Positions 3,270 to 13,865 of a stretch of 22,510 nt of DNA are shown one piece after another. Position 1 is the first letter of the stretch, and the number at the start of each line of letters is the position of its first letter. The notes under the pieces are model-generated. The model did not search any database, was not told where the DNA came from, and saw only the letters and a list, made by a program, of their open reading frames with translations. This DNA is from a virus: the IMG/VR virus record IMGVR_UViG_3300009419_000111, positions 1 to 22,510 of that record, one strand, 5' to 3'. The position numbers and the translations under genes are program-made.

Positions 3270-3292
3270 CCTGCTACATTACGCAGTAGGTT
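3268..3292. terminator. Possible bidirectional hairpin terminator between convergent genes
   Basis: AACCTGCT and AGTAGGTT form an 8-bp stem with one G-U pair and a loop of about nine bases. On the + strand it is followed by TTTTAG, a short T run. It covers the junction of the convergent genes ending at 3269 (+) and 3274 (-), and overlaps the last codons of the primase gene. The minus-strand side has no T run, so termination there would be weaker. Confidence 0.45.
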
Positions 3293-5595
3293 TTAGCGGT
3301 AGAGTTAAACAGCTCTATCGTTTTTGGCTGTGATAGCTCGACGATAACGCCTTGATCCGCCAAGCCTTTGATAGCTGCCAGCGTTGCACCCGCAGAACCA
3401 CGCGGGTCTCGACTGAACAACTTGAGGCCGTACAAGCGGCGTTGATAGTATGCCCACGGGATACAGCGGTTCTCGACATGCGACGCTGTGACGCCATACG
3501 AAACCATGCGCGACGGCTCCAAACCGATAAACTCCTGCGTGACCTTCAGCGCAAGCTCTAACTGTTTATTATCCTCACGCACGCCCTGCACCAGCGTACC
3601 CATCTCACCCGTATTGAATTTTTCGAGCATGATGGCGATGTCGAAATTGACCATCTGGCTCGCCCATTTCACGTCGTCGGTACTGATAACAGGTTGATAG
3701 ATGTTCCGGCCGATGGCGATAAGCGCTGCAACCTTCAGCATCTTGAGGTACGCCCGCGACCATAGCTGCCGCACCACGTCGCTGCTTGCGTCGTTGATCA
3801 AGTCGTCGCAGTATTCGTTGTAGTCCATAGCCGCATTGTCCGCAGCCGGATCTAGCTGAATATCGATCACCTTGCCCGACTCGATGATGGCGTGGCACTG
3901 CTGGCACAGGGCACTGAGCATTTCGATCAGTCCGCGTTCCGGTACAGCCGCAGCCATCTGGCGGTTCAGTCGCGGACGCTTGCCCTGATAGTGGATCAAC
4001 ATGAAACGGCTGACCAAACCTTCGGCCAGCAGATCCGGCGTGATCACCTCGAAAAACTTCTCGGGTGTAGAGTCGCCTAGGATCGTAAGGGCAGGCGACT
4101 TAATGACCTTGGTGTTCTTGGTCTTGTCCGCGTACACCGTCGGCCGAATAACCCCCGAGTGCCCCGACTTACCGTAGGCATCCAGCAATAACCGCCGCAA
4201 ACCAACCTGCACCCCGTTGGCCTTGGCCGAGGACAAGTTGCTCAACCACATACCGCACTCACCGATCAGTGAGACGAAGCAGGTATTTCCCTCGCTCATG
4301 TAGTTAAGCACGCCCTGCGCTGACGCCATGTCGGACGGGCCGATAAACTTCTCGACGCTAGGTGACGTGGCCGTGACCATGTTGACCAACGCACTGATCC
4401 CGTTGCCCACAGCTTCCTTGCCGATGCCCGTGGTGGCGATAGTAACAAGGTACTGATTCAACCCCGTACCGGACACGTTAAACGCCTTGCCGCAGATACC
4501 CGCCATAAAACCGAGCGCACCAGCTAGTGCAAGCTCAGCGACAGGGCGGGGCGCGGCGTCGTAAATGTACTGGGCAATGTCACCGACCATACCGACAGGT
4601 TTCGAGTAAGCGTCGTGCACAAACGGCAGGGAGCCGAGCTGGATGTCCGGCACAGCGAGGCGCTGCAAGGTAGCTTGGGGTAAATCGCCGACCACTGTAT
4701 CGATGTTGGTCGGAGCACTACGCTGGGCCAGCCCGTCAAGTAACGCGTCCAGCGACACTTCCGGTAGCATCCGGTCAAACGACCGCTGGATCATTGTGGG
4801 CAGGTAATCTGGGCGCTTGGCCTTATCGCGCTGCCCCAACGCTGACGCTAGGAAGATACGTTCGATCTGTGCTGCGTTTTTCGTGTAGAAGGCCAGAATA
4901 TCGATCAGGGCGAAGTCGGCTTCAGACTGGGACGCGTAGTATTCGTTCCAGTTGCCCATGTAGAGGGCGTAGAATTTCTTGCCGTTGCTAGCACTGTAGG
5001 CAGCCGAGCACACGGCGTCATCGCTTTGAGTCTGTGGGCTATTACCGTCGTGGCAAACGAGGCTGCTGGCCGATTTAGGCGCAAGCTCCTCCCACAACTC
5101 GACGAGCAGATCCTGCCTGTCCGCAATCGGCCGGTCAAGGTAGACGTTGCCGGTACAGGTAAAGAACCGCGCTGTGGAGTAGATTTCGAGCGGACGACGG
5201 TTGCGTCCCTTCTCGACTTCACCGCGCACGATGATGTGGTGACCTTTGCCGCTCGGTGAGATCTCGGTGTAGCTGTCGAATGCGGTGATCAGGTTGGCTT
5301 GGCGTAGCTTCAGGTCAACGTCGTCAACGTCGTCTAGGTCGATGACCGCGAACGGGTCGAGGGCTGTAAGCACAAAGCCGATACCTGACCACAGGTTCGG
5401 TTCGGCGTATACAGCCGCACAGGTTTCGGCATACGAAGCCCAAGTGGCGGGATTGGTTACGCTGGCCGGTGCGCCGGTAACGCCGCAGTACGGAACCTTA
5501 GTCGGCTTCTTACCCGCGTCGCGCGTTTCATATCGCCAGACTACCCACTGTGGCCGCTCACGCAGCGACAGGGGTAAATTGTCATAGTTGGTCAT
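3274..5595 (-). CDS. Primase-polymerase with C-terminal DUF3987 helicase-like domain
   Basis: I chose ATG 5595 (MTNYDNLPLSLRERPQWVVW), preceded by AGGATCGCAGG, giving 773 residues. Residues 1-150 look like the bifunctional primase-polymerase domain of the NrS-1 polymerase type: VIDLDDV (D86 and D88 as likely metal ligands), SPSGKGHH (113-120) and EIYSTARFFTCTGN (137-150). Residues about 205-275 resemble the helix-bundle domain of that family. Residues about 320-690 match DUF3987, with ATTGIGKEA (387-395) in the P-loop position and SLIGECG (442-448) as a Walker-B-like strand. It should make primers at the phage fork and may unwind DNA. The P-loop has Glu where Ser/Thr is usual after GK, so ATPase activity is uncertain. 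It is co-transcribed with the HTH gene, overlapping it by 14 bases, and faces away from the other replication genes. Confidence 0.85.
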   Translation of the reverse strand: MTNYDNLPLSLRERPQWVVWRYETRDAGKKPTKVPYCGVTGAPASVTNPATWASYAETCAAVYAEPNLWSGIGFVLTALDPFAVIDLDDVDDVDLKLRQANLITAFDSYTEISPSGKGHHIIVRGEVEKGRNRRPLEIYSTARFFTCTGNVYLDRPIADRQDLLVELWEELAPKSASSLVCHDGNSPQTQSDDAVCSAAYSASNGKKFYALYMGNWNEYYASQSEADFALIDILAFYTKNAAQIERIFLASALGQRDKAKRPDYLPTMIQRSFDRMLPEVSLDALLDGLAQRSAPTNIDTVVGDLPQATLQRLAVPDIQLGSLPFVHDAYSKPVGMVGDIAQYIYDAAPRPVAELALAGALGFMAGICGKAFNVSGTGLNQYLVTIATTGIGKEAVGNGISALVNMVTATSPSVEKFIGPSDMASAQGVLNYMSEGNTCFVSLIGECGMWLSNLSSAKANGVQVGLRRLLLDAYGKSGHSGVIRPTVYADKTKNTKVIKSPALTILGDSTPEKFFEVITPDLLAEGLVSRFMLIHYQGKRPRLNRQMAAAVPERGLIEMLSALCQQCHAIIESGKVIDIQLDPAADNAAMDYNEYCDDLINDASSDVVRQLWSRAYLKMLKVAALIAIGRNIYQPVISTDDVKWASQMVNFDIAIMLEKFNTGEMGTLVQGVREDNKQLELALKVTQEFIGLEPSRMVSYGVTASHVENRCIPWAYYQRRLYGLKLFSRDPRGSAGATLAAIKGLADQGVIVELSQPKTIELFNSTAKTYCVM

Positions 5596-5797
5596 CCTGC
5601 GATCCTTCAAAATGCTGAACAATGCGGGTCAAATGCCCCACGCTTGTGTTCGCGGTGAGCCGCCCGCGATTGAGCAGCCCAAGCCACGGTAGCGGTACGT
5701 CCGCTTTAATGGCGAGGTCTTCGAGTGTGAGTGAAACGGGCCGGTGCTGTACCAGCTTCTCAGCTTGGACAAGTAGCGGCGGACGGTTTTCGGTCAT
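5582..5797 (-). CDS. Small helix-turn-helix DNA-binding protein (Cro/CI-like)
   Basis: The frame is open up to 5908, but ATG 5797 is the sensible start: it follows CAGGAGAAACCACT, a strong ribosome binding site, and the upstream codons lie in AT-rich control DNA. The 71-residue product carries SLTLEDLAIKADVPLPWLG (22-40) and SVGHLTRIVQHF (52-63). This is the layout of a lambda-repressor-type HTH with a short C-terminal helix, and there is no separate oligomerisation or peptidase domain. It is likely a Cro-like repressor or small activator. It lies first in the leftward operon, directly beside the divergent region with repeated motifs, and overlaps the primase gene by 14 bases. Autoregulation and control of the rightward replication promoter are inferred from position. 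Confidence 0.82.
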   Translation of the reverse strand: MTENRPPLLVQAEKLVQHRPVSLTLEDLAIKADVPLPWLGLLNRGRLTANTSVGHLTRIVQHFEGSQDDQL

Positions 5798-5919: not shown

Positions 5920-6327
5920 ATGCAACTAACCGCCATTCAACGTGACTTACTGATCAAATGGTCAGCGGCACGCGAAACGCTGGAGACAGCGAAAGAGACG
6001 GAGCGTAAGCTACGCGACGAAGTTCATGCAAGCATTTTTCACGATATTAGTGGCACGCAGACTGTCCCGCTTGCCCACGGTTTCAAGGTGAAGTGTTCAA
6101 CCACTGAGAAGCGTACCTTGCGGGGCGACGCGACAGAAATTGGCGCACTGCTTGCTGCGCACCCGACGCTGGCCGATGCAGGCGTGATAACATGGGAACC
6201 TAAGCTGAGCTACGGCAAGGCCAAAAGTCTCGTGGATCGCGAAGCTCTCCAAGCGCTTAACGAGCACATCGACGTAACGCTTGGCACGCCGAGTATCACA
6301 ATCGAAGCTCCGAAGGACAACTCATGA
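5920..6327 (+). CDS. Unknown 135-residue protein at the head of the replication operon
   Basis: The first gene after the rightward promoter; ATG 5920 has GGAG about 9 bases upstream. Residues 5-38 form a charged helix with heptad character (IKWSAARETLETAKETERKL), followed by a beta-rich part (VPLAHGFKVKCSTTEKRTL). The C-terminal segment contains VTLGTPSITIEAPK. Short proteins of this design, with a helical N-terminus and a C-terminal pattern like GTPS-hydrophobic, commonly sit beside Sak4-type ATPase and SSB genes in phages; I recall them as uncharacterised (possibly DUF7173). The role is unknown. Linkage suggests a recombination or replication accessory. It overlaps the next gene by ATGA (6324-6327). 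Confidence 0.78.
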   Translation: MQLTAIQRDLLIKWSAARETLETAKETERKLRDEVHASIFHDISGTQTVPLAHGFKVKCSTTEKRTLRGDATEIGALLAAHPTLADAGVITWEPKLSYGKAKSLVDREALQALNEHIDVTLGTPSITIEAPKDNS

Positions 6328-7022
6328 CGCTTAAGCTGACTACCACCAACGCGGCGATTAACGTCGGCCCGAAGGTACTGGTCTACGGCCGCCCTGATGC
6401 GGGCAAGACGACGTTACTGCTGACTGTACCGAACACCTTGGTAATCAGCAGCGAAGACTTGATGAGCCTGCGCGGACACAACCTCCCGCTGTTCAAGATC
6501 GGCACTGTCGAAGAATTCCTCGAATTGATCGATATTCTCGACGATCCAAACGTATTTAGTAACTACGGCGCTGTCGGCGTTGACTCGGTTACTGACATCA
6601 GCCGCATGCTACTTGAGCGGATGGTGAAGGAGCAGAAGGACGGACGCAAGGCACAGTACATCGTGCAGGACTACGTGATGACGTTCTTGCGCAAGCTGCG
6701 TAACATCAACACGCCGGTCGTAGTGCTGGCATGGCAGCAAGAATACGGTGGCGAGGTAACACCCGCCGCCACTGGTAAGATCTTAACCGAGGCACTGGGG
6801 CACTTTTTCAACGAAGTCTTCCACTTGGCTCGCTGGCCTGCCAAGGACGAGAACCAACGGGACATCGTTGATCCCGCGACTGGTCGTCCGGTTGAGCGCC
6901 GCTTTTTGCAGACTCGCACGGCAAACGGTATTTTTGCCCGCGACAATACCAACACCCTCGAACTTTTTGAACCCGCCGATCTCGGCACAATTCTGGCTAA
7001 ATTAGCCGCAACTGGAGCTTAA
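6324..7022 (+). CDS. Sak4-like P-loop ATPase, single-strand annealing recombinase
   Basis: The 232-residue product has a Walker A motif GRPDAGKT (22-29) and a Walker-B-like strand YGAVGVDSVTD (81-91). The conserved TPVVVLAWQQEYGG follows, and the C-terminus is NTLELFEPADLG. This is the layout of the RecA-core AAA_24/Sak4 family of phage single-strand annealing proteins. Such ATPases promote annealing of ssDNA, usually together with a phage SSB, whose gene (DUF669) follows here after 3 bases. The length fits the family. ATG 6324 overlaps the upstream stop (ATGA) and has AAGGA nearby. Function in recombination-dependent replication or repair is inferred from family and neighbours. Confidence 0.87.
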   Translation: MTLKLTTTNAAINVGPKVLVYGRPDAGKTTLLLTVPNTLVISSEDLMSLRGHNLPLFKIGTVEEFLELIDILDDPNVFSNYGAVGVDSVTDISRMLLERMVKEQKDGRKAQYIVQDYVMTFLRKLRNINTPVVVLAWQQEYGGEVTPAATGKILTEALGHFFNEVFHLARWPAKDENQRDIVDPATGRPVERRFLQTRTANGIFARDNTNTLELFEPADLGTILAKLAATGA

Positions 7023-7025
7023 CCC

Positions 7026-7673
7026 ATGAGCCAACATCTACCTCCGCTAAACTTCGACGCAACGCAGACGAATCTGCCAACAGGCGCGACGTTGCTGCCA
7101 GAAGCCATCTATGACTTCAAAATCGTTGCACACGAATACGCGACCAAAACCGACACTAACGAAACCGGCCTCAAACTGAAGCTGCAAGTGGCGAGCGGCG
7201 ACCATTTCGGCGTGATTGTTACCCACAGCTTGAGCCTGTGGTACAAAAACGAAGACGCCCAACGTATCGCGGCTCAGGAGCTTTCTGCTTACTGCCACGC
7301 TACCGGCGTGCCAAAGTTGACCGACGCCTCCCAACTCTACGGCAAGCCGTTCCGTGCCCGTGTCATCTTGCAAGAGTTTGAGAAGAAAAACGCGGCTGGT
7401 CTGAAAACCGGCGAGAAGCAGTCGTCTAACAAGGTCACCCAGTGGTTCTACTCCGACGGCTCGGATCTGGTCAAGGGTCAATTCGGTTTGGCTGGCGCAC
7501 CACAGGCCGGTACAGCTCCGCAAATGACTCCGCACGCGCAACCGGCCGTTCAGCCTGTCGTGCAACCGCAGGCTCAGCCAGCAGTGCAGGCACAGCCACA
7601 GGTACAGCAACCGGCACAACCACAACAGGCCGCACCAGTTGCAGCGCAACCGGCATGGGCTGCTCCACAATAA
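7026..7673 (+). CDS. DUF669-type single-stranded DNA-binding protein
   Basis: Residues 1-150 match the DUF669 pattern: GATLLPEAIYDFKIVAHEY, LKLKLQVASG, SLWYKNEDAQRIAAQELSAY and GKPFRARVILQEF. Members act as phage SSB-like proteins and often follow a recombinase gene, as here. Residues 155-215 are a flexible tail of Gln, Pro and Ala that ends AWAAPQ. It lacks the acidic DDDIPF-like tip used by bacterial SSBs to recruit partners. GGAG lies about 8 bases before ATG 7026. It probably coats ssDNA at the fork and supports the Sak4-like annealase. A strong hairpin follows the stop. Confidence 0.82.
   Translation: MSQHLPPLNFDATQTNLPTGATLLPEAIYDFKIVAHEYATKTDTNETGLKLKLQVASGDHFGVIVTHSLSLWYKNEDAQRIAAQELSAYCHATGVPKLTDASQLYGKPFRARVILQEFEKKNAAGLKTGEKQSSNKVTQWFYSDGSDLVKGQFGLAGAPQAGTAPQMTPHAQPAVQPVVQPQAQPAVQAQPQVQQPAQPQQAAPVAAQPAWAAPQ
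7536..7652 (+). repeat. Low-complexity Gln/Pro/Ala-coding tract in the SSB gene
   Basis: Imperfect repeats of CAG/CAA, CCG/CCA and GCN codons encode residues 171-209, such as VQPQAQPAVQAQPQVQQPAQ. The tract accounts for the long antisense open frame seen opposite this gene. It is a linker-type disordered tail, likely variable in length between relatives. Confidence 0.75.
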
Positions 7674-7728: not shown

Positions 7729-8307
7729 ATGCCACGCCGAATGGAGTTAGACGCCGATGGTCGCGTCGTACCCCCAACGAGTTGCCCCAACTGCGGCAAT
7801 CCGACTGTAGACCTTATCCTGAACGTCGCTTTTACCACGATTCAAGAAGTTGTACACCCTAAACACCGCTACCAGTGCCCGCGCTGCGGTGCTGCCGTCC
7901 TGACGCACCCCGACAGCTTTGAGCCTATGGGCTACATGGCTGACATGGACACGCGCCGGATGCGCCACCGTACCCACACGTTCTTGGAACAGCTTTGGCA
8001 CAGCTCGTATATCACGCGAAACGCCGCGTATAACCAGCTCGCCGCCCACCTAGACATACCGCCTGACCAGTGCCACATCTCATGGCTGCATTACAATGAG
8101 TTGGTCATGGCGCGGGACTATCTGCGGGGTCGGGTGGCAGACATGAAACTGAACCTGCGGCGCTGTGCAAAGAACCGCAAGCGCAACCAAAAACGCATTG
8201 AGGAGCAACGGCAAAATGAGCTTGAGTACAGAAAAAACGCACGACGTGAAATTAAGCGACATATCCGCAAGGATAAAAGAAGCCGTGTCAAATTCTTTCA
8301 CAAATGA
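7729..8307 (+). CDS. DUF3268 zinc-ribbon protein
   Basis: I chose ATG 7729, which follows TTGGAGGTTAGT, over in-frame ATG 7702, which sits in a hairpin loop. The 192-residue product has a zinc ribbon from C19-x2-C22 and C50-x2-C53. A helical part (PMGYMADMDTRRMRHRTHTF, then YNQLAAHLDIPPDQCHIS) follows, the layout of the zf-DUF3268 family found in phage genomes. Residues about 145-192 are a highly basic tail of Lys, Arg and Glu (HIRKDKRSRVKFFHK at the end), likely to bind nucleic acid or be disordered. The molecular role is not known. It lies between the SSB and the nuclease, and its basic tail overlaps the nuclease gene by 92 bases if that gene starts at 8216. Confidence 0.8.
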   Translation: MPRRMELDADGRVVPPTSCPNCGNPTVDLILNVAFTTIQEVVHPKHRYQCPRCGAAVLTHPDSFEPMGYMADMDTRRMRHRTHTFLEQLWHSSYITRNAAYNQLAAHLDIPPDQCHISWLHYNELVMARDYLRGRVADMKLNLRRCAKNRKRNQKRIEEQRQNELEYRKNARREIKRHIRKDKRSRVKFFHK

Positions 8308-9094
8308 CGACGGCGCACGCAAGCATCTCGGCTGTTCAATTCTCGGCAAGCCGTGTGATCGGTCTATCTGGTACAGCTTTCGCTGGGCGACTGTACCGAA
8401 CCACTCGCAACGGCTGCTGCGTATTTTTGACCGAGGCCAGCGCGAAGAAGACCGGATGCTCGACATGCTGGTTCGTGCGGGCGCTGAGGTATCCCGCGTA
8501 GATCCCGCCACAGGCGCGCAGTATCGCGCTGACCTTGGCGTTCCGCACCTCGGGGGCAGTCTCGACGCCATCGCGGTGCTGCCGCCAAGTCTCACCGGCT
8601 GGGCGGTTCCCGTACGCGTTGTAGTCGAGTGCAAAACACACGGTAACTCGCCGTTCGGGCAAGTGAGCAAAAAGGGTGTCGCTGCCGCGTATCCGGCACA
8701 CTACATGCAGGGCATGCTGTACGCCTACGCGCACGACATCGACTACGTGCTGTACATGGCGCTGAACAAGAACGACGAAACGCTTTATTTTGAGCTGTAC
8801 GCAGTTGATCGCGTGCTGGCACAGCGTAACGTCAAGCGCGCACGGGACATCATTAGCGGCGAAACCCCGCGCATCTTCGCCCGCATCTCGACCAATCCGA
8901 CGTCCTTCGCGTGCAAATTTTGCGATCATGGGGCGGTGTGCCACTTTGGTGGACAGCCCCGCGTGTCCTGTCGAAGCTGTAGGCATGTTAAACCGACAGA
9001 CGCAAGTGAGTGGTACTGCGGTAAGTGGAACGCCGTGATCCCGACCAAAGACGACCAGTTAAAAGCCTGCCAAGCATGGGAGCAGTACGACTGA
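8216..9094 (+). CDS. PD-(D/E)XK nuclease with Cys cluster (Cas4/RecB-like exonuclease)
   Basis: The 292-residue product from ATG 8216 has LGGSLDAIA with D117, VVVECKTH with E138 and K140, and HYMQGMLYAY with Q165. Together these form the PD-(D/E)XK catalytic core with the QxxxY motif. C47 near the N-terminus and C233, C236 and C242 toward the C-terminus are placed like the four Cys ligands of an iron-sulfur cluster in Cas4/AddB-type nucleases. C252, C255 and C268 could form a further metal site. The gene has GGAG before ATG 8216; an alternative GTG at 8285 would cut the overlap with the previous gene to 23 bases and still keep the conserved region (HLGCSILGKPCDRSIWYSF). It likely resects DNA ends to feed the Sak4/SSB pathway. 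It joins the helicase by a TGATG overlap. Confidence 0.82.
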   Translation: MSLSTEKTHDVKLSDISARIKEAVSNSFTNDDGARKHLGCSILGKPCDRSIWYSFRWATVPNHSQRLLRIFDRGQREEDRMLDMLVRAGAEVSRVDPATGAQYRADLGVPHLGGSLDAIAVLPPSLTGWAVPVRVVVECKTHGNSPFGQVSKKGVAAAYPAHYMQGMLYAYAHDIDYVLYMALNKNDETLYFELYAVDRVLAQRNVKRARDIISGETPRIFARISTNPTSFACKFCDHGAVCHFGGQPRVSCRSCRHVKPTDASEWYCGKWNAVIPTKDDQLKACQAWEQYD

Positions 9095-10758
9095 TGAGCA
9101 TCTATCAACCGCGCTGGTATCAGCAAGAAGCCTGCGACGCCGTGTTCGACTTTATCATCAAGCCGGAAAATCGGGGTAAAAACCCACTGGCTGCCTTGCC
9201 CACAGGTACAGGCAAGTCCCTCGTGCTGGCAATGATCGCCAAGCGCGCGATGACGACGTATCCGAGCACCCGCGTGCTTATGCTGACGCACGTCAAAGAG
9301 TTGGTCGAACAGAACGCCGAGAAGCTGTCCGAATACTGGGAAGGCGCACCGCTGGGCGTCTGGTCGTCAGGGCTGAAGAAACGCGAGTGGCATACGCCGT
9401 GTACTTACGCCGGTATCGGCACAGTGCGGTCGAACGTGGCGTTGCTGGGGCGGCGCGACATCGTGATGATCGACGAAGCCCACAGGGTGTCACCAAGCGA
9501 AGAAGCGACGTACAAAGACGTGCTGTCGCAGTTGCGCGGGATCAATCCGAACATGGTCGTGGTCGGCCTAACTGCCACGCCTTACCGCCAAGGGCAGGGC
9601 ATGCTGACGGAGCCGTACAACAAGCGCGGGCAAGACGATCCGGTGCTGCCGCTGTTCAATGACATTGTGTATGACATGTGCAGCTTCGAGGGCTTCAACC
9701 GCTTGCTCGACGAAGGCTTTTTGGCTCCGCTGACCAGTCGCCCGACCAAAATGGAAGTGGACGTCACCGATGCCAAGTCGCGCGGCGGTGATTACGTGCT
9801 GGATAGTCTGGCCGAACAGGTCAACACCCCCGAGAAGATCGTCGCGGTCTGCGATGAAATTATCGAATGCGGCGAAGAACGGCGTTCGTGGTTGGTGTTT
9901 GCGTCAGGGCTACAGAACGCCGACTTGCTGGCTACTGAGCTTAATTCGCGCGGCTACAGCGCTGCTGTCGTATCGGCCAACACCAAGAACCGCGATGAGC
10001 TACTCAAGGCGTTCAAGGCGGGTGAGCTGCGCTGTATCGTGAACAACGACGTGCTGACGACAGGGTTCGACTATCCGGCACTCGACTTGATCGCTGTGGT
10101 GCGTGCCACCAAGTCAACCTCGCTTTGGGTGCAGATGCTCGGACGGGGCACACGGCCGCACCCTGACAAAGAAGACTGTCTGGTGCTCGACTTCGCTGGT
10201 AACACCAAGCGGCTAGGCCCGATCAACGATCCAGTCCTGCCACGCGGTCGCGGTAAAGGCTCAACCGCTGAAGCGCCGGTAAAGATCTGTCCGACGCCAA
10301 CCTGCGGCGTGTACCTGCATGCCTCGGCGCGTGTCTGTGATCACTGTGGGCACTTGTTCCTAGGTCACAAGAACATTACCGAACACGCAAGTACGCTGGA
10401 GCTTATCGCGCGCGAGGAAAAACGGTACGAATGGCGCGAGCTGGACAACATCGGCTATAAGCACACCGTGAACAAATTCACAGGCGCGCGCGTGATGCAG
10501 GTTGTATACACGACGAAAAACCGCGAGCGTTACTACCTTCAGCACACGTTCAACGGCGCTGGCACAAGCAAGGCGTCGCAAGACTGGTGGCTGCTCCACG
10601 CCCGTGCGCCGGTTCCGCTAACCAACGATGAGGCCATGAGCCGCATCCCTGAGATCAAAACGCCGTTCAGCGTCGAGATCTTAATTTCAGCCCGCACAAA
10701 AAACCCGAAGGTGGTAAATTATGGCTTCGCCAGACCAACTGTACCCGTTAGTGCCTAG
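9094..10758 (+). CDS. SF2 (DEAD/DEAH-type) helicase
   Basis: The start is ATG 9094 (MSIYQPRWYQQEACDAVF), overlapping the nuclease stop by one base; the longer frame to 9025 lies inside the nuclease gene. The 554-residue protein shows the Q-like motif RWYQ (7-10), Walker A PTGTGKS (36-42), DEAH (127-130), TATP (160-163), and motif VI QMLGRGTRPHPD (347-358). C399, C404, C415 and C418 form a zinc ribbon after the helicase core. The C-terminal 115 residues (KYTV-type segment HTVNKFTGARVMQVVYTT, then DWWLLHARAPVP) resemble the extra domain of phage RecQ/RIG-like helicases. It would unwind DNA in replication or recombination. The gene end overlaps the small Cys-protein gene by 38 bases. Confidence 0.9.
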   Translation: MSIYQPRWYQQEACDAVFDFIIKPENRGKNPLAALPTGTGKSLVLAMIAKRAMTTYPSTRVLMLTHVKELVEQNAEKLSEYWEGAPLGVWSSGLKKREWHTPCTYAGIGTVRSNVALLGRRDIVMIDEAHRVSPSEEATYKDVLSQLRGINPNMVVVGLTATPYRQGQGMLTEPYNKRGQDDPVLPLFNDIVYDMCSFEGFNRLLDEGFLAPLTSRPTKMEVDVTDAKSRGGDYVLDSLAEQVNTPEKIVAVCDEIIECGEERRSWLVFASGLQNADLLATELNSRGYSAAVVSANTKNRDELLKAFKAGELRCIVNNDVLTTGFDYPALDLIAVVRATKSTSLWVQMLGRGTRPHPDKEDCLVLDFAGNTKRLGPINDPVLPRGRGKGSTAEAPVKICPTPTCGVYLHASARVCDHCGHLFLGHKNITEHASTLELIAREEKRYEWRELDNIGYKHTVNKFTGARVMQVVYTTKNRERYYLQHTFNGAGTSKASQDWWLLHARAPVPLTNDEAMSRIPEIKTPFSVEILISARTKNPKVVNYGFARPTVPVSA

Positions 10759-10933
10759 TCAAGCGGCGCTCATTCGCCTCCGTGACGCACTAGCGGCAAC
10801 ATACGTGCAGCGTAGTTGTCTACCCTGTGATCATTTCGACGAGGCATCCGAGCAATGCCGCCTCGTCAACAAGCGGCCGCCCGCACGCGTGATTGCGTAC
10901 GGCTGCGAACAGTTTGACTATATCCCGTTCTGA
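10721..10933 (+). CDS. Small four-Cys protein with SSB-tip-like C-terminus
   Basis: The 70-residue product has C33-x2-C36, C46 and C62, spacing that fits a single zinc or iron-sulfur site. The block CLPCDHFDEASEQCRLVN followed by PPARVIAYGCEQFDYIPF is recognisable in small uncharacterised phage proteins beside helicase or polymerase genes. The last six residues, FDYIPF, resemble the C-terminal tip of bacterial SSB (DDDIPF), which binds many replication proteins. ATG 10721 has AAGGTGG upstream and overlaps the helicase by 38 bases; the clamp-like gene starts 8 bases later. The function is not established; a replisome adaptor is my inference. Confidence 0.8.
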   Translation: MASPDQLYPLVPSQAALIRLRDALAATYVQRSCLPCDHFDEASEQCRLVNKRPPARVIAYGCEQFDYIPF

Positions 10934-10941
10934 GGTGCACC

Positions 10942-11883
10942 ATGTTAGAAATCAAGAAGTTGAAAGCCGCCATAACGGCTGAAAATCACATCTCGTTTCG
11001 TGGCGGTTTCGCAATCGCCACGGACGGCGGAACAACAATCGCCACCCCGACAACCATTGAGCTTGGTCTAGCACCGCGCGGCATGCAATTGCTTAAGAAC
11101 GTCGAAGCGTCCGAAGGCTCAGTGTTCACCACTACCGAGCTTAACGGTCAGCTCAGTGTAAAACTGGGGCGGCGTACGCTGAAGGTCGCAGCAATGCCGG
11201 TGAACGACGTACCGCACAACGTGGCGTATGGTCAGCAGTACACATTCGACTTTGCGCCGCAGTTGCGGGCGTTCCTCAAGCAGTGCAAAGGCACGTCCGC
11301 TGACAGCTTGTCGGCAAAGGTCAGCTCTACCGGCGGCTTGGTGTGGTGGACGGATCGCTCTACGCTACTGGCGACTTCGCTTGCACTGCCTGACTTTACG
11401 GTCTTCGTCGAAGACTTGACCAAGGTCATCAGTGTGGGTGAGAAGATTGTTTCCGTGTCTGCTGGCCCACACAGTGTGACGTTCTACTACGAAGACGGCT
11501 CATACGCGGTTGCACTATGTGTCGAGCCGATGGATCTGCCGCTAAAACAACGCGTGCTCGCACTGCTGGCTAAGGCAGGCGATCTGTCACTACACCAGTG
11601 GGACTTACAGCCGTACGCGAAAACCATCAAAGACATGCTGAAGGCGATGCCCGCTGAGCAAGTCAAGCTCCAGTCTGACGCCATTGTGATGCACCACGAA
11701 AACGCCACGCTGACGGAAGAAGTCGCGCTACCCGTGGGAGGTACAGTCGTGGTCAAAGCCTCGGCGCTGCATGCCGCTATCAACCTGTCGTGCTTTGAGT
11801 GCGTGGAGACTGGCCCTGCCCTGTACTTCCGCAGCGACGCCGTGTGTGTCGCCGCCTTCCGGTTCACGGAGACGCGGCCATGA
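10942..11883 (+). CDS. Sliding-clamp-like (DnaN-fold) processivity factor, putative
   Basis: The 313-residue product can be divided into three units of about 100 residues: 1-97, 98-200 and 205-313. Unit 1 opens with LKAAITAENHISFRGGFAIA, unit 2 holds WWTDRSTLLATSLALPDF and VTFYYEDGSYAVALCVEP, and unit 3 ends VKASALHAAINLS, ALYFRSDAVCVAAFRF. The closing pattern resembles the last domain of beta clamps, where a helix and strand pair are followed by a strand ending in MPMRL. Phage clamp-like proteins I recall have the same middle-domain rhythm. It stands directly before the DNA polymerase gene with an ATGA overlap. A role as a phage polymerase processivity ring is inference; overall sequence identity to DnaN is low. 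GAGG precedes ATG 10942. Confidence 0.62.
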   Translation: MLEIKKLKAAITAENHISFRGGFAIATDGGTTIATPTTIELGLAPRGMQLLKNVEASEGSVFTTTELNGQLSVKLGRRTLKVAAMPVNDVPHNVAYGQQYTFDFAPQLRAFLKQCKGTSADSLSAKVSSTGGLVWWTDRSTLLATSLALPDFTVFVEDLTKVISVGEKIVSVSAGPHSVTFYYEDGSYAVALCVEPMDLPLKQRVLALLAKAGDLSLHQWDLQPYAKTIKDMLKAMPAEQVKLQSDAIVMHHENATLTEEVALPVGGTVVVKASALHAAINLSCFECVETGPALYFRSDAVCVAAFRFTETRP

Positions 11884-13865
11884 GTCTATTCTTCGATGAT
11901 GTGCCGGTAGTGCACAAAAAGCATGTACGCAAAGGCGCAATGCCGCCAATACCGGCAGCGTGTCGCGGGTGGAAAACGCCAGCGCTGCCCTATCACTACG
12001 TCAATGCCCACACGATTGGTGTCGATACCGAGACGCGCGAGATGGACTTCGAGCACGGGGCTGGTTGGGGCAAAGGGCGCAGCTTCATCGCGGGTGTGTC
12101 GTTAGCTGCCATGTTCAACGACGGGCACGTCGAGAAGTGCTACCTGCCTATGCGCCACAAGAACAGCGACGGGTACAATATGGACGTCAACAGCACGTTG
12201 GCGTTCCTGCGCGACTTGCTCGGGCGTAGCATGCCTAAAGTCGGGGCAAACATCCTATACGACGCGGGCACGCTCGCTGCTGAGGGTGTGTGGCTCGGTG
12301 GCCGGTGGCACGATATTCAGGCGATGGAAGCGCTGTTTAGTGACGACGGCTACGTCGGCTTGGACTACCTCGGTACGAAGTACCTTGGGCGTGGCAAGGC
12401 TTCCGACGGTATGTACGACTACATTCGCGCCGCTTGGCCGAACACGTCCGAGAAAAAGCTGCGGCAGCATATCTGGGAGATTCCAGCTCCAGTCGCAGCG
12501 CACTACGCCGAAGACGACGCCGAGTTGCCGTTGCTTATTCTTCAGCGCCAGTGGCCGATCATGATTGAACGCGGCCTCAAGGACGTGTACGACATGGAGT
12601 GCGAGCTGCTGCCGCTGCTGGTAAAAATGCGCCTTGAGGGTGTATCGATTGATCTAGGCTACGCTGAGGAGTTGCATGCCAAGTTAGGTGTCGAAATTGA
12701 ACAAGACCAAGCTAAGCTCGACGCGGCGTACGGCTGGACGGGTAGTGTGGACAGCGGCCGTGACTTAGCCCGCCTGTTCGACAGTCAGGGCATCAAGTAC
12801 GGTTTCACCGACGCAGGCGCGCCGTCGTTCACTAAAGAATACCTGAAGGGACTTGTGGGCAATCCGGTCGTCGATAGCATCTTGGCGATTCGCGAAAAGT
12901 CCAAGATCCGTGGCACGTTCTTGGAGTCGTACCTGATTAACGGCAACGTGAATGGCAAGGTGCACTGCGACTTCAACCCATTGCGCGCCGACGAAGGCGG
13001 TACACGCTCCGGTCGGTTGTCCGCCTCTAATCCGAACCTGCAAAACATCCCGTCACGCAGCGATCTTGGTAAGCTGGTTCGTAAGTGCTTCATCCCCGAC
13101 TACGGCCATTTCTGCTGGCAATCATCAGACTATTCACAGATTGAATACCGGATGCTTTGCCATTTCGCTGTCGGTATGGGCGCTGACGAAGTGCGCGCCG
13201 AGTACAACAACAACCCAATGACCGACTACCATGTGTTCACACAGGCGCTGGTTAAGGCTAAAACAGGGCTTGAGATCCCGCGTAAGCCGATCAAGAACAT
13301 TAACTTTGGCCTGCTGTACGGGATGGGTATCCCGCTGCTTACAAGGCAGCTCGGCATTACACGGGCAGAGTCTGACTCTATTTTTTCGGCCTATCACCAA
13401 GGCGCGCCATACGTGCAAGCCACGATGGACTGGGCCGCACAGTTGGTGCACCGCGAGGGTATCGCGCGCACGATCATGGGGCGGCTGTCGTACTTCGACA
13501 AATGGTCACCGCGCGGTTACCATCCTGACGCAGTGCCGATGGACTACGCAGCGGCTATTCGGGCCTACGGTTCACAGATCGAACGTGCCCACACGCACAA
13601 GGCCATCAACCGCACCTTGCAAGGCTCAGCGGCAGACGTGATGAAAAAGTCTATGGTGGACTGCTACAAGAGTGGTATTTTTGACCAGATCGGTGTGCCG
13701 CGCCTAACTGTTCACGATGAGCTTGACTTCAGCGTTCGTGACGACAGCCCTGCGACTCGCGAGGGCTTTAAGGAAATGCAGCACATTATGGAAAATTCGA
13801 TCCGGTTACGGGTTCCGGTTATTGTCGAATCTGATCGGGGCAGAAGTTGGGGTGAACTCGGTTGA
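11880..13865 (+). CDS. Family A DNA polymerase with 3'-5' exonuclease domain
   Basis: ATG 11880 overlaps the upstream stop (ATGA) and has GGAG before it; upstream in-frame codons lie inside the clamp-like gene. The 661 residues hold Exo I DTET (49-52), Exo II NILYD (124-128) and Exo III YAEDD (209-213). The polymerase motifs are A DYSQIEYR (417-424), B RKPIKNINFGLLYG (468-481) and C HDE (612-614). Proofreading and polymerase sites therefore look intact; there is no 5'-3' exonuclease domain. F476 occupies the position where Phe rather than Tyr lowers dideoxynucleotide use in E. coli Pol I. It is the probable replicative polymerase of the phage. The N-terminus MSLFFDD could serve as a clamp-binding peptide. 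The last 60 bases overlap the convergent gene ending at 13806. Confidence 0.95.
   Translation: MSLFFDDVPVVHKKHVRKGAMPPIPAACRGWKTPALPYHYVNAHTIGVDTETREMDFEHGAGWGKGRSFIAGVSLAAMFNDGHVEKCYLPMRHKNSDGYNMDVNSTLAFLRDLLGRSMPKVGANILYDAGTLAAEGVWLGGRWHDIQAMEALFSDDGYVGLDYLGTKYLGRGKASDGMYDYIRAAWPNTSEKKLRQHIWEIPAPVAAHYAEDDAELPLLILQRQWPIMIERGLKDVYDMECELLPLLVKMRLEGVSIDLGYAEELHAKLGVEIEQDQAKLDAAYGWTGSVDSGRDLARLFDSQGIKYGFTDAGAPSFTKEYLKGLVGNPVVDSILAIREKSKIRGTFLESYLINGNVNGKVHCDFNPLRADEGGTRSGRLSASNPNLQNIPSRSDLGKLVRKCFIPDYGHFCWQSSDYSQIEYRMLCHFAVGMGADEVRAEYNNNPMTDYHVFTQALVKAKTGLEIPRKPIKNINFGLLYGMGIPLLTRQLGITRAESDSIFSAYHQGAPYVQATMDWAAQLVHREGIARTIMGRLSYFDKWSPRGYHPDAVPMDYAAAIRAYGSQIERAHTHKAINRTLQGSAADVMKKSMVDCYKSGIFDQIGVPRLTVHDELDFSVRDDSPATREGFKEMQHIMENSIRLRVPVIVESDRGRSWGELG

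Follow-up and report, generated by a model that had tools for sequence, protein, structure and literature searches.

A divergent beta-type sliding clamp encoded beside a family A DNA polymerase in a viral genome fragment

Several cultured phages, namely vB_PmaS-R3 (Paracoccus), DLP1/DLP2 (gp28), Kakheti25, Me-ZS1, VpKK5, CAjan and SE4, carry directly upstream of their family A polymerase gene (polA) a clamp of about 310-340 aa that belongs to the phrog_947 family, and in phages such as R3, DLP1/DLP2, CAjan and SE4 its annotation reads 'DNA polymerase III beta subunit' or 'replicative clamp'. The gene order published for the Stenotrophomonas phages DLP1/DLP2 is exonuclease, helicase, small ORF, clamp and DNA polymerase, the clamp being named 'replicative clamp' (PMC4559383). 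A phage clamp located beside PolA had already been named by means of HHpred (PMC7472734), and HHpred also pointed to a beta subunit in phage Vid5, where the polymerase next to it was termed DNA polymerase B (PMC6266253). Here we have analysed a stretch of 22,510 nucleotides of the virus record IMGVR_UViG_3300009419_000111 (the window), in which a 313-aa protein of this same family is encoded just before a family A polymerase. The exonuclease-helicase-small ORF-clamp-pol order of R3 and the DLP phages matches that of the window (Table 1), and the small ORF occupies the slot filled by an HD-domain/hypothetical ORF in those phages. Downstream of polA, on the opposite strand, there are genes that include one for a minor tail protein.

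Table 1. Features of the clamp-polA locus and of the genes preceding it in the window.
Feature	Position	Strand	Remarks
Cas4/RecB-like exonuclease	8165..9094	+	phrog_1990 E=8e-83
Superfamily II DNA helicase	9025..10758	+	phrog_16 E=3.5e-92
Small conserved ORF between helicase and clamp	10721..10933	+	phrog_23504, function-unknown family
Divergent beta-type (DnaN-like) sliding clamp, 313 aa	10942..11883	+	domains about residues 1-96, 97-194, 195-313
ATGA stop/start overlap, clamp and polA	11880..11883	+	4-base overlap recurs in many relatives
Family A DNA polymerase, 3'-5' exonuclease domain, 661 aa	11880..13865	+	PF00476 E=2.4e-63
PolA N-terminal tail MSLFFDDVP, candidate clamp-binding peptide	11880..11906	+	disordered yet conserved

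Other genes were also recognised in the window. The same replication region contains a primase/helicase-like protein (3274-5622, minus strand; phrog_3022, E=7.6e-201) with an NrS-1 polymerase HBD-like domain (PF22763), and a dCMP deaminase-like protein is encoded at 2229-2660 on the plus strand (phrog_174, E=4.3e-21). A Sak4-like ATPase (phrog_124, 6324-7022) and a ssDNA-binding protein (phrog_6015, 7026-7673), both on the plus strand, suggest that a recombination module adjoins the replication genes.

The clamp ORF comprises 313 codons, from an ATG at 10942 to a TGA ending at 11883, and polA proper starts at the ATG at 11880, a longer ORF with a GTG start from 11799 being a mechanical extension. 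The preliminary description, made from the sequence alone, had reported this ORF, its ATGA junction with polA and the C-terminal string ALYFRSDAVCVAAFRF, and all three are present as described; it had also identified the protein as a clamp. Searches with the 313-aa protein alone gave no match in Pfam or NCBIfam, tblastn with the single sequence against phages and IMG/VR found nothing, and phmmer against the PDB returned only noise. These searches fail because the protein is too divergent, so that a family profile is needed. Related loci were gathered through the better conserved PolA, from IMG/VR plus cultured phages, and an iterated family HMM that was seeded with eight phage clamps, and did not include the window protein, collected 59 distinct ORFs. 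The window clamp was found by this leave-one-out HMM at E~1e-19. Furthermore, when a 47-member family profile was run against the PDB the top 52 matches were all beta clamps (best 1.4e-12) and the three domains were covered. Almost all the members of this family (45/47) matched phrog_947 and 17 of them matched TIGR00663 dnaN individually, while the window clamp matched phrog_947, a 'DNA polymerase processivity factor' family in PHROGs, at E=4.6e-8 over residues 9-254.

The predicted structure led to the same identification. An AlphaFold2 model of the clamp, obtained with the family alignment as input (pLDDT 87.3, pTM 0.85), contains three units in a row, each with the order helix-3 strands-strand-helix-3 strands, which correspond to the three DnaN domains. 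The fold comparison with DnaN proposed in the preliminary description was run with Foldseek on this single-chain model, and beta clamps of the PDB were matched at E~1e-13. VIA-align against DnaN gave a Z of 21-22 and an rmsd of 2.7-3.3 Å, with about 296 of the 313 residues aligned and spanning residues 1-312. The threefold rhythm that had been noticed in the protein is therefore seen in the structure, as three repeated units, but it is weak in the sequence: shuffles scored as high in 2/500 and 12/500 cases for units 1-2 and 2-3, and units 1-3 were no better than shuffles (278/500 as high). Among the tests run, none gave evidence against the clamp fold. Family profile, predicted fold and synteny thus strongly support that the 313-aa protein is a three-domain beta-type (DnaN-type) clamp homologue, as originally proposed, and a gene unseen by Pfam and single-sequence BLAST is now settled as a beta-type clamp. 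It adds a very distant member to an already known family of phage clamps: its identity to the cultured phrog_947 clamps named above is only about 13-20%, which is why tblastn with the window clamp misses them.

The pairing of this clamp with polA extends well beyond the window. An upstream clamp ORF is found in nearly all PolA relatives of at least about 40% identity, often with the 4-base overlap kept. When two cultured clamps were used as tblastn queries against the phage collection, 363 records were matched by one (P0004) and 170 by the other (P0006), the two sets overlapping, and many of the matches carry the name DNA polymerase beta subunit, replicative clamp or processivity factor. Below about 36% identity, most PolA relatives lack a detectable clamp on their contigs, which may be fragments, in a search that detected 7 of 7 positives. 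In one PolA clade (L062-L093), about 32-36% identical, no phage clamp was detected on contigs that reach 75 kb in length. A clamp accompanying a phage PolA had been considered unusual and worth noting for that reason; as the pair occurs widely and has been annotated before in hundreds of phages, this expectation does not hold. The module is better placed as a common phage replication set, in which a repair-type polymerase apparently owes its processivity to a ring of its own.

The polymerase is Klenow-like and lacks the 5' nuclease domain. Both its exonuclease residues (D49/E51/D128/Y209/D213) and its polymerase residues (D417, R468/K472, H612-D613-E614) are conserved, and Klenow fragment provides the closest PDB chains. 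A scan of genome contigs gave only PolA matches at 26-32% identity in bacterial genome records, and these were set aside. In T7 polymerase, the thioredoxin-binding loop sits in the thumb. In the AF2 model of the window PolA (pLDDT 90), as judged by inspection, the helices H259-284 and H293-303 of the thumb region are joined by a short connection. This short connection, together with the nearest matches being to Klenow, does not suggest a T7/thioredoxin mode for this enzyme.

Residues 1-17 of PolA are predicted to be disordered (pLDDT<50). Clamp-paired PolA relatives keep the pattern [LMF]F[WF][ED][DE] at positions 3-7, and the linker after it varies. Where no clamp was detected, 16 of 28 relatives have Q..[LM]F at the N-terminus, when 0.2-0.9% would be expected from random windows or shuffles, a count to be read bearing in mind that the motif was spotted in the same sequences before counting, that the sequences are related and that the contigs may be incomplete. 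Bacterial beta-binding peptides have the general form Q..LF. On the PolA tree, four changes are needed for the clamp label. L058, which is clampless and carries QQSLF, sits among clamp-bearing rows at a poorly resolved fork, L060 is clampless and has no Q..[LM]F motif, and L025 (QGMFF) and L088 (QAGLFF) are clamp-bearing and combine both tail forms. This correlation suggests that a single type of tail could hook either the phage clamp or host DnaN. It is possible, although we would not yet call it probable, that the disordered tail is a replaceable clamp hook and that clamp ownership and tail type switch together, with [LM]F[WF][ED][DE] denoting use of the phage's own clamp and Q..[LM]F denoting use of host DnaN where the clamp has been lost or is lacking. 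The difference in tail between clamp-paired and clampless PolA may be new, and the motif would offer a simple testable rule to predict which clamp, that of the phage or that of the host, a phage PolA works with.

We consider it very probable that the clamp is the processivity factor of the adjoining PolA, and the gene pairing makes a ring dedicated to PolA plausible. Two clamp subunits would close head-to-tail into a six-domain ring, which the host DnaX/delta/delta' complex would load at primers; the PolA tail MSLFFDDVP would then dock in the domain II/III pocket of the clamp, tethering the polymerase, and translational coupling through the ATGA could help matched synthesis of both proteins. 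The clamp-loader families delta (PF06144) and delta-prime (PF13177) were absent from the window, from six complete related phages and from seven further contigs (14 records), in a search for which control genomes gave matches. As no loader of these two bacterial families is found in the window or its relatives, the host loader probably loads the clamp, and since the protein is shorter than cellular beta (313 aa against about 366) the loops that touch host loader subunits may be missing.

The same lack of PF13177 and PF06144 genes in the fragment and in related genomes would also fit a loader-independent factor, that is, a three-domain clamp-fold protein in monomeric or open-ring form that binds DNA directly, with no need of host loading. 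Loaderless viral clamps, according to Kazlauskas and Venclovas (NAR 2011), reportedly tend to carry a positive charge and may contact DNA directly, a pattern that would favour this alternative. However, the window clamp has a net charge of -3 and its relatives are mostly acidic too, unlike that pattern, and a loader is present in the host. The acidic character makes a loaderless DNA-binding clamp less likely, if indirectly, and we regard this explanation as improbable; a positively charged clamp of that kind is disfavoured by the pI of 6.2. Still less credible is that the clamp fold serves mainly some other use, for instance to occupy the host replisome or modulate it (as a decoy or toolbelt), with PolA working without it. 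In its favour, the contact between clamp and PolA in our preferred reading is one that we infer, but the conserved clamp-polA adjacency, the frequent 4-base overlap and the conserved tail of clamp-paired PolA argue against it, and we give it very little weight.

When compared with other processivity systems, the clamp shares with bacterial DnaN the three clamp domains and gives a full-length structural match and a profile match to it, at about 10-14% identity. It is about 50 residues shorter than DnaN, and its partner is a family A polymerase whereas that of DnaN belongs to family C. The clamps of the T4 gp45/PCNA type also have the clamp fold, and Foldseek matches to T4-like clamps were weaker (about 225-245 columns). 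The gp45 clamp has two domains per chain and forms a trimer (PMC4858162). The window clamp, in contrast, has three domains per chain. In T7 gp5-thioredoxin, too, a processivity partner accompanies a family A polymerase of a phage; no long thumb insertion is apparent in the PolA of the window, whose system has a clamp where T7 uses the host thioredoxin.
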